From contig JAQXDE010000014.1 in the NCBI GenBank assembly GCA_029251525.1, positions 62,001 to 126,000 on the forward strand: a stretch of 64,000 nt of DNA. The letters are read 5' to 3'. Origin of the DNA: Saprospiraceae bacterium (GTDB lineage Bacteria > Bacteroidota > Bacteroidia > Chitinophagales > Saprospiraceae). The notes under the pieces are model-generated. The model made no database searches, was not told the DNA's origin, and saw only the letters and a list, made by a program, of their open reading frames with translations. How positions within the stretch are numbered: position 1 is the stretch's first letter; each line of letters opens with the position of its first letter. The translations under genes were made by a program, and so were the position numbers. Positions 15,791 through 17,561 of this stretch are shown here, in pieces.

Positions 15791-16891
15791 TTAATTTTCT
15801 TTTTTAAACAAATTATTCAAGTGAGAATCATCGCAAAATGGAGATTTTTTAGATAGTTTACAATTACAAAGTCTTGCATTCACTATCTTTTTCACCTCGA
15901 AGGGAAGCGGTTTATATTTTGAACCATGATGTGATCCGTCGCAAAATGGTTGATTTTTACTGAATCCACATTGACAAAATAGATGGGTTATATTGGGTTT
16001 CAACTCAACCTGAGTTGGTTCCATTATTGTTGTTTTTTTCCTTTTATAATCTCTCGATATTTCACTCCCTGATTTATCAGAACCAACTAAAGGCCACAAA
16101 TAACTTGCAGTCCATTTATCTTTTGGATCATTGATAAGACCATATTCAACGGGGAATTTTCGAGTGAACTTAGCTGTACCAAAAAATTGGTCCCAAAGCG
16201 AAAACATATTTCCGTAATTACCATTTGGGTCGCTCACATTATCAGCCATAGATTTCCCATGATGAGCATGATGAAAAGCAGGAGTAATAAAAATCCTTTC
16301 TAACAGAGTAATTACAGGATTCAAAATGGGATATTTATAGAAGAACTTATCCCAAGACAACGTACTATGTGAACCAATAATGACTAGTTGTTTGAGAATT
16401 AACCCAAGCGCAACTCCTTTCGCACCACCAAGAAAAACAACAATTCCCACCCACCAAAGATTTGGCATAATTACATAATATAATGCTGCATTTCGGTATG
16501 AAATTAAAAATCCCATTTCCTCTGCTTGATGATGAGGTCGATGTAATTTCCAAAGAAATTCATATTCATGAGCAGATCGATGATACCAATATTGCATAAC
16601 ATCATCGATAAATAAATAAAAAGGTAACATTAACCATAAACTCCAATCTCCAATTATATTTTGATATTCAGGAAGTAAAAACCTTCCGAGATAAAATACT
16701 GAAGCAACAATAGTGGGTTTGATTAATAACGACAAAACAAAAAAACCTCCAGCCTCTTGAATCCAATCACCAAAGTTACGTTTTGTATTTACCCAATAGC
16801 CTGCTAAAGTCTCAACTAGGACGAAAAAGATTATAATTCCGAGCACCACATAGACATCTAAATTCTCTATTCCAAATAATGTGTTATCCAT
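15791..16891 (-). CDS. Fatty-acid hydroxylase/sterol-desaturase domain fused to tandem CDGSH iron-sulfur motifs
   Basis: A 366-residue protein. Residues 1-265 form a membrane diiron hydroxylase of the sterol-desaturase superfamily, with several transmembrane helices and three histidine boxes: H104-R-S-A-H108, H117-R-P-H-H121 and H207-H-A-H-H211. After a charged linker come two CDGSH motifs: C306-x-C308...C317-D-G-S-H321, which fits the consensus exactly, and C342-x-C344...C353-D-D-S-H357. Each 3Cys-1His set should bind a [2Fe-2S] cluster. The clusters may pass electrons to the diiron site (inference). The substrate is unknown. A Crp/Fnr regulator gene lies 73 bases upstream. Confidence 0.9.
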   Translation of the reverse strand: MDNTLFGIENLDVYVVLGIIIFFVLVETLAGYWVNTKRNFGDWIQEAGGFFVLSLLIKPTIVASVFYLGRFLLPEYQNIIGDWSLWLMLPFYLFIDDVMQYWYHRSAHEYEFLWKLHRPHHQAEEMGFLISYRNAALYYVIMPNLWWVGIVVFLGGAKGVALGLILKQLVIIGSHSTLSWDKFFYKYPILNPVITLLERIFITPAFHHAHHGKSMADNVSDPNGNYGNMFSLWDQFFGTAKFTRKFPVEYGLINDPKDKWTASYLWPLVGSDKSGSEISRDYKRKKTTIMEPTQVELKPNITHLFCQCGFSKNQPFCDGSHHGSKYKPLPFEVKKIVNARLCNCKLSKKSPFCDDSHLNNLFKKEN

Positions 16892-16964: not shown

Positions 16965-17561
16965 TTAATTATTGGAGTTACGTTTCCGATTAACAATTCT
17001 GGAAAAAGAAACAGCTGTAATACCCAAATAATTAGCAATATGCTTATTAAATGCAGTCTGAAAAAATTGGGGACTTTGTTCCAACAGTGCTTCATAACGT
17101 TCCTCGGGAGTAAGACTTATAAGTGATTCTACACGCGAAATAAGTGTCATTATATTCTCTTGTAAAGCTTCAAAATTAACTTGAATAAGGTTAGGATGCT
17201 TTTTACCAAGAGATTTTAATTCTTCAAAATTGAACACCAAAAGTTCAGTTTCCAAGATGGATTCGAAAGTAAACTTGGTAGGTTTATTATGAAAAAGACA
17301 TTCAGGAGCTCCTGAAATAGTATGCTCAGGTCGAAGAAAAATATTTTTCTCATCTCCTTTTTCATTAATAAAAAAACCTCTAATCATTCCTTTTAAAATA
17401 AAAAATGAGTTTTGATTAATTTGACCACTTCTAATCAGCACTTCTTTGTTGTAACAAACACGAAATTGGCTAATTTTTAATAATGCCTCTAGATCATCAT
17501 TAGTTAGAAATGGATAAGTTACTTTTAAAATTTGATTTGCCCTTTCTATGTAGTCTGCCAT
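16965..17561 (-). CDS. Crp/Fnr-family transcriptional regulator
   Basis: A 198-residue protein with an N-terminal cyclic-nucleotide-binding-like beta roll (about 15-130) and a C-terminal helix-turn-helix (FNKHIANYLGITAVSFSRIV, about 170-189). The Fnr cysteines and the cAMP-contacting Arg-Ser pair of Crp are not evident, so the effector is unknown. This short Crp-like class is very common in Bacteroidota. It is upstream of and co-oriented with the hydroxylase-CDGSH gene and may control it (inference from position only). Confidence 0.88.
   Translation of the reverse strand: MADYIERANQILKVTYPFLTNDDLEALLKISQFRVCYNKEVLIRSGQINQNSFFILKGMIRGFFINEKGDEKNIFLRPEHTISGAPECLFHNKPTKFTFESILETELLVFNFEELKSLGKKHPNLIQVNFEALQENIMTLISRVESLISLTPEERYEALLEQSPQFFQTAFNKHIANYLGITAVSFSRIVNRKRNSNN

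Follow-up and report, generated by a model that had tools for sequence, protein, structure and literature searches.

For each O2, a membrane diiron oxygenase consumes two electrons, and these enzymes often come with their donor attached. The hallmark of the FA_hydroxylase superfamily is a set of three histidine boxes (HxxxH, HxxHH, and HxxHH), and the superfamily presumably includes the fatty acid 2-hydroxylase Scs7p, which carries a fused N-terminal cytochrome b5. The first protein of the NEET family has been known for about two decades.

Several described systems come close to the gene reported here. In AlkB-AlkG proteins (for example, FtAlkBG), a membrane His-ligated diiron oxygenase is joined to a small C-terminal iron-sulfur carrier, and this AlkB-rubredoxin arrangement is a natural fusion of a donor to a membrane diiron enzyme for which a structure is available (PMC10113152). 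Cytochrome b5-fused desaturases and hydroxylases and a ferredoxin-reductase/ferredoxin-AlkB are documented in a 2022 review, one passage of which states, citing a source from 2001, that no ferredoxin-fused desaturases were found (PMC8918992). The alk operon of the OCT plasmid contains genes for alcohol and aldehyde dehydrogenases and an acyl-CoA synthetase, and the alkB9 gene of Rhodococcus has upstream of it, in nine of the nine regions tested, a gene for an iron-sulfur domain to which a figure legend gives the label CDGSH (PMC11854999). With regard to the CDGSH proteins, type 6 CISDs are described as carrying two motifs in tandem, separated by ~20 residues, and as sharing with type 5 alone the strong conservation of one Gln and one Lys, and the type 5 CISD is described as a type-6 domain joined to the FMN-binding domain of glutamate synthase (PMC3174974). 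According to a 2024 paper, the functional role of CISD3 is still largely unknown (PMC10937110).

Here, we describe a gene that joins a hydroxylase-family head to a tandem CDGSH tail. It was found in the window, by which we mean the whole 64,000-nucleotide stretch of Saprospiraceae bacterium DNA that was analysed. The first-pass annotation, made from the letters of the window, had not recognised this arrangement as a characterised one, and our literature search agrees: among the matches listed from the open-access literature (titles and abstract openings), no description of a hydroxylase- or desaturase-CDGSH fusion was found, and in the main text of a study of 494 bacterial CDGSH sequences (PMC5859297) the words fusion, fused, desaturase, and hydroxylase never occur. 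The parts and the principle are already known; what appears to be new is the combination, both among donor-fused membrane oxygenases and among the CISD fusion types.

Architecture and conservation of the fusion protein

The fusion gene is a single uninterrupted frame of 366 codons on the minus strand that spans exactly 15791-16891, and it encodes a 366-aa membrane protein of the FA_hydroxylase/sterol-desaturase family with a C-terminal tandem CDGSH domain. In the Pfam analysis, residues 91-239 (16175..16621, minus strand) matched FA_hydroxylase PF04116 with an E value of 6.7e-24 and 85.2 bits against a cut-off of 31, which places the head in the FA_hydroxylase superfamily, and zf-CDGSH PF09360 matched two stretches (E 1.6e-16, 60.7 bits against a cut-off of 29.5). 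The earlier reading of the gene as a hydroxylase/desaturase head followed by two CDGSH motifs was thus borne out by both Pfam families. For this protein, "sterol desaturase" is a family name only. At a related locus (L036), the adjacent gene scored 566 on a cholesterol-oxidase model, below the cut-off of 850.

Residue conservation was followed in 42 aligned rows, comprising the window protein, 33 of the 34 fusions from a scan of species genomes (genome_contigs; L033 was left out), and eight loci from a set of 60 genomes. The window protein contains the three-His-box pattern of the superfamily, with H104 and H108 in the HxxxH box (16568..16582), H117, H120, and H121 in the first HxxHH box (16529..16543), and H207, H210, and H211 in the second HxxHH box (16259..16273), all on the minus strand. 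These residues were invariant in 42/42 rows, and so was H175. In the tail, all four ligands of CDGSH motif 1, CQCGFSKNQPFCDGSH (C306, C308, C317, and H321; 15929..15976, minus strand), and the three cysteines of motif 2, CNCKLSKKSPFCDDSH (C342, C344, and C353; 15821..15868, minus strand), were likewise invariant in 42/42 rows, whereas the last ligand of motif 2, H357, was kept in 41 of the 42. The ligand positions originally proposed for both motifs are therefore correct. The one exception, L024:1681-2748 (the same gene as L009), has a frame that ends early, with a stop directly after the CDD of motif 2 and the loss of the last His ligand; coding similarity runs on past the stop to residue 358-359, and the stop may be a sequencing error or a real truncation. 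The residue following CD in motif 2 was Asn in 22 rows, Asp in 15, Gly in 2, Gln in 2, and Phe in 1, showing that the D-D-S-H form singled out at the first reading is present and common within the group. Over the 42 rows, mean pairwise identity was higher in the head core (0.70) and the tail (0.64) than in the linker (0.44), so the tail is under constraint.

The tandem CDGSH domain occupies residues 286-363 (15803..16036, minus strand). The distance from the first motif (C306-H321) to the second (C342-H357) is 20 residues, which is the spacing of type 6 CISDs. When Gln33 and Lys64 of MmCISD were equated with Q314 and K345 by motif position, the marker residues of types 5 and 6 were found as well (Q314 in 37/42 rows and K345 in 42/42). 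A phmmer comparison of the tail with MmCISD (3tbn) gave an E value of 2.2e-13. The best of five AlphaFold2 models had a mean pLDDT of 89.9 and a pTM of 0.86, the five ranging from 72.0 to 89.9 in mean pLDDT, and its predicted tail matched human CISD3/MiNT (6avj) with Z 9.9 and an rmsd of 2.2 over 78 residues and MmCISD with Z 9.7. Judged by spacing, marker residues, and predicted fold, the tail is a type-6-like (CISD3/MiNT) domain. Because it is fused to FA_hydroxylase, we call it a type-6-like domain and not a type 6 protein; type 6 CISDs are small separate proteins, whereas here the domain forms the end of a membrane enzyme. CDGSH domains fused to another domain are also found in CISDs of types 5 and 7, but their partners are glutamate synthase and DUF1271, respectively, rather than a hydroxylase, and neither the glutamate-synthase FMN domain nor DUF1271 matched the window protein in Pfam at E up to 0.1.

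The predicted head resembled the hydroxylase domain of yeast Scs7p (4zr1) weakly (Z 5.2, rmsd 5.9 over 179 residues, 17% identity), a low score that still outranks the next matches (Z 2.5 and lower). Scs7p/FA2H has, like the window protein, a natural carrier fusion and presumably belongs to the superfamily of its head, but it is eukaryotic, and its carrier is a cytochrome b5 at the N terminus. Compared with AlkB-AlkG, the window protein has an FA_hydroxylase (PF04116) head in place of an AlkB-family head and a two-cluster CDGSH domain in place of a one-iron rubredoxin. FA_desaturase, which we take to be the Pfam family of AlkB, was not matched by the window protein, for which PF04116 and PF09360 were the only Pfam matches at E up to 0.1. 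We infer that the tail binds [2Fe-2S] clusters and that the head binds a diiron site.

In the window genome (5.25 Mb), five other places match the head of the query. The same genome encodes, on a separate contig, a stand-alone 81-aa tandem-CDGSH protein whose motif 1 reads CNGAH, not CDGSH (L003:1474-1719).

Distribution and descent of fused and unfused forms

The scan of 84,980 species genomes, whose pattern seeds came from the window protein alone and which reaches close relatives only, returned 54 loci, of which 34 were fused and 20 were tail-less relatives. By organism title, the fused loci include Saprospiraceae, Lewinella, Chitinophagales, Candidatus Arcticimaribacter, one unassigned bacterium, and three Acidobacteriota (Pyrinomonadaceae, Chloracidobacterium, and one other). 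The first-pass annotation had named two observations that would overturn it, separate genes in relatives and an assembly artefact at the junction. The artefact was ruled out, since the fusion is encoded in different assemblies at these 34 of the 54 loci. Furthermore, a six-frame search around 37 unfused relatives, 17 of whose loci span only ~3-4 kb, revealed no CDGSH-like motif, indicating that this family has no split version of the pairing of head and CDGSH domain.

In total, 55 candidate fused loci were collected, and 44 were left once identical ones had been removed, with near-copies persisting among them. These 44 came chiefly from Bacteroidota bins, together with the three Acidobacteriota bins. 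Single placements, above all those in Acidobacteriota, could be binning errors because all 34 fused loci of the scan are metagenome bins; the three Acidobacteriota fusion sequences do cluster together. Among 60 genomes (the window's own and its relatives), the fusion was present in 11, and an unfused relative alone was found in two at the limit used. A class-wide draw of 395 genomes contained the fusion in 7, including the window's, and an unfused relative in 15, and the 147 genomes from the class of one Acidobacteriota carrier gave matches only in the three carriers already known.

A tree was built from the head domains of 44 fused and 36 unfused proteins, leaving out five distant paralogues and one mis-picked row (L075). 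One branch splits the fused from the unfused sequences, with an ultrafast bootstrap of 97, an SH-aLRT of 78 (for which the branch received no star), and presence in 96% of 200 bootstrap trees, so that one gain or one loss of the tail suffices on this unrooted tree. Rooting with the five distant paralogues made the fused sequences basal and the unfused ones nested, but the paralogue branches are very long, and the tool warns against joins of this kind. If this rooting of the sequences were right, it would mean loss of the tail and would argue against a simple late gain.

No relative was found among 58 pattern matches in viral contigs, and the plasmid homologues, three in number with 32-38% identity, are all unfused; on these grounds, a mobile or viral gene was rejected. 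One of the plasmid homologues aligned into the motif-1 region, but its CDS ends earlier, and the frame behind it contains no CDGSH motif. Two Pseudomonas plasmids carry unfused sterol-desaturase-family genes beside arsenic resistance genes (L151:9944-10759 and L153:7944-8759). Among the matches listed for 296 genomes of the window's phylum, all of which score above the fusions, there were no CDGSH frames of 330-450 aa; the window's own fusion was not listed either, and this is no sign that fusions are lacking there. Stand-alone CDGSH genes were matched in seven plasmid records; of the three inspected, the two with annotation at that place showed no hydroxylase or desaturase nearby. A 535-aa CDGSH frame in another genome (G455) reads, from its sequence, as a type-5 CISD, and a genome that also carries the fusion has an apparently type-5-like CISD, read as tandem CDGSH motifs with a glutamate-synthase-like domain (L114:94-1647).

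Neighbouring genes of the fusion

The genes within four positions of the 44 fused loci (277 neighbours) were surveyed along with those of 20 unfused control loci (147 neighbours). Several of the fused loci stop at a contig border, which makes their counts lower bounds, and each near-copy was counted as a locus of its own; the unfused loci are a weak control, since they belong largely to one clade (Dyadobacter, Emticicia, and Runella). The only frequent neighbour of the fusion was a Crp/Fnr-like gene, located at -1 on the same strand in 12 of the 44 loci, the window included. In the window, this gene (16965..17561, minus strand; cNMP_binding PF00027) lies 73 bp upstream of the fusion in the same direction and is likely a regulator or an operon partner of it. 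Of the 20 unfused loci, 6 also had a Crp-like gene nearby, but in each case it lay on the opposite strand and not at -1. Beyond the Crp/Fnr-like gene, the neighbours scanned with Pfam (40 of the 277) were mostly lineage-specific (for example, sulfatases, transporters, and secreted proteins), and the possibility of a conserved operon was therefore rejected. Sulfatase genes close to the fusion were seen at L132:3673-5337 and L042:7852-9330.

At nine fused loci in all, genes for an aldehyde dehydrogenase (ALDH; near five), a GMC alcohol dehydrogenase (near four), or an acyl-CoA ligase (near three) were found, whereas none of these was present among the 147 neighbours of the 20 unfused controls. 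No such gene occurs within four genes of the fusion in the window or at 34 further fused loci (35/44). The gene ends overlap or nearly touch at L028 (GMC, -4), L031 (GMC, 13), L138 (GMC, 7), and L140 (ALDH, -4). The five fusion-adjacent ALDHs form one subfamily, the other four being 60-72% identical to the L042 copy, and for the two that were scanned, the nearest model was benzaldehyde dehydrogenase MdlD, with scores below the cut-off. The L028 GMC protein passed the cut-off of the NCBIfam choline dehydrogenase subfamily (612 vs 605), the L031 GMC protein just failed it (603), and the L042 ligase passed that of the long-chain-fatty-acid-CoA ligase subfamily (502 vs 476). Of the three ligases, two share 69% identity although one comes from a Bacteroidota and the other from an Acidobacteriota bin; this may reflect joint transfer or a contig placed in the wrong bin. 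On the fused tree, adjacency of ALDH needs 5 changes, that of GMC 4, and that of the Crp-like gene 7.

An ALDH at least 60% identical to that of L042 was found in 6 of the 11 genomes with the fusion, compared with 5 of the 49 others in the set of 60 (one-sided Fisher p 0.003, kinship ignored). Rough Poisson estimates of chance gave p ~1e-4 for the four GMC loci and ~2e-4 for the five ALDH loci, assuming 4500 genes per genome, ignoring near-copies among the loci, and taking family counts from nine genomes, eight of which had been picked for having such neighbours. In the window genome, an ALDH 77% identical to a fusion-adjacent ALDH is encoded at G000:C45:445208-446635 (L142:5209-6639), and two paralogues of the hydroxylase head lie on the same contig. 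At two other loci, a 425-434 aa protein with no Pfam match (L123:7687-8991 and L130:7627-8904; 71% identical between the two) is encoded upstream of a second fused paralogue, a divergent one, at distances of 28 and 42 bp.

A candidate built-in electron donor and its alternatives

The window protein is probably a membrane diiron lipid or alkyl hydroxylase whose tail is a covalently attached electron donor of the CISD3 type. The first-pass annotation had left electron delivery and redox sensing side by side; delivery is now the better supported option, and sensing stays as a rival. What favours delivery is the existence of analogous donor-fused oxygenases, the predicted two-cluster CISD3-type fold, and the alkane-degradation-like neighbours at some loci. 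In the proposed mechanism, the two [2Fe-2S] clusters of the tail would receive electrons from a cytosolic flavin reductase and would pass two electrons to the His-ligated diiron site for one O2 activation. The diiron site would then hydroxylate (desaturation being less likely) a lipid or another alkyl substrate. In some lineages, the resulting alcohol could be passed on to the GMC alcohol dehydrogenase, the aldehyde dehydrogenase, and the acyl-CoA ligase encoded nearby. The neighbours at the nine loci mirror the alk steps (hydroxylase, alcohol and aldehyde dehydrogenases, and acyl-CoA synthetase), a likeness to the gene content reported for the alk operon of the AlkB-AlkG system (PMC11854999). 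For CISD3, a single sharp voltammetric signal near -31 mV has been reported, interpreted by its authors as electron transfer in which the two clusters cooperate (PMC10937110). We found no report in the open-access literature of a CDGSH domain reducing a diiron oxygenase.

The 37 unfused relatives manage without the tail and with no CDGSH motif found nearby, which counts against a donor and favours another explanation, in which the tail senses redox state, NO, O2, or iron and turns the hydroxylase on or off while electrons come from an unlinked ferredoxin or cytochrome. Such a sensor would also fit the Crp/Fnr-like gene that precedes the fusion at 12 of the 44 loci, which suggests regulated expression, and the properties reported for CISD3, whose oxidised clusters are unstable and which responds to NO and, in vitro, to peroxide (PMC10937110). 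However, 41 of the 42 rows retain the full ligand set of both clusters, beyond what one sensor site needs, and we consider sensing unlikely. We know of no sensor fusions to membrane diiron enzymes. Donor fusions to such enzymes, by contrast, are documented (PMC10113152 and PMC8918992). The tail might also hand iron or [2Fe-2S] clusters to the head or to partners and so help to metallate the diiron site; a review considers the transfer of clusters by NEET proteins (PMC6006223). A tandem domain permanently bound to each enzyme would nevertheless be a costly chaperone, and this role seems highly improbable. To our knowledge, no diiron enzyme requires a covalent cluster donor.

A further alternative concerns the substrate only and is compatible with an electron-donor role of the tail. 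The head may be a biosynthetic modifier of ornithine lipids, sphingolipids, or other membrane lipids, the catabolic neighbours being incidental. The sole NCBIfam match at E up to 0.1 was ornithine lipid hydroxylase OlsE (NF052566; E 4.9e-11), but its score of 42.5 is far under the cut-off of 475. The 35 of 44 fused loci that lack catabolic neighbours speak for this substrate class, whereas the several changes that the ALDH and GMC neighbours need on the tree speak against it. We regard a biosynthetic substrate as quite conceivable, although we do not expect it.

If the built-in donor is real, it would represent a new kind of electron-carrier fusion beside the cytochrome b5, rubredoxin, and ferredoxin modules. 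The natural fusion names a candidate electron acceptor for CISD3-type domains, and the question becomes addressable in one purified protein. A broader and rather doubtful idea, offered tentatively, is that CDGSH domains could be dedicated donors of membrane diiron oxygenases, fused in the present case and encoded by an adjacent gene at Rhodococcus AlkB9. Under this idea, cooperative two-cluster reduction of a tandem CISD3-like domain would suit an enzyme that takes exactly two electrons per O2, and the type-6 NEET fold, that of human CISD3, would gain a direct function. At the AlkB9 locus, the gene upstream of the membrane diiron oxygenase is the one labelled CDGSH (PMC11854999), but the genes are separate, the oxygenase is of the AlkB family, and the organism is Rhodococcus. 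Among the 40 Pfam-scanned neighbours of fused loci (of 277), there was no reductase, which, like the lack of catabolic neighbours at 35 of the 44 loci, speaks against the proposed mechanism. The nearest thing to one is a 539-aa 4Fe-4S-domain protein encoded upstream of the fusion on the same strand at another locus (L053:3225-4844), which is a possible electron-transfer partner.
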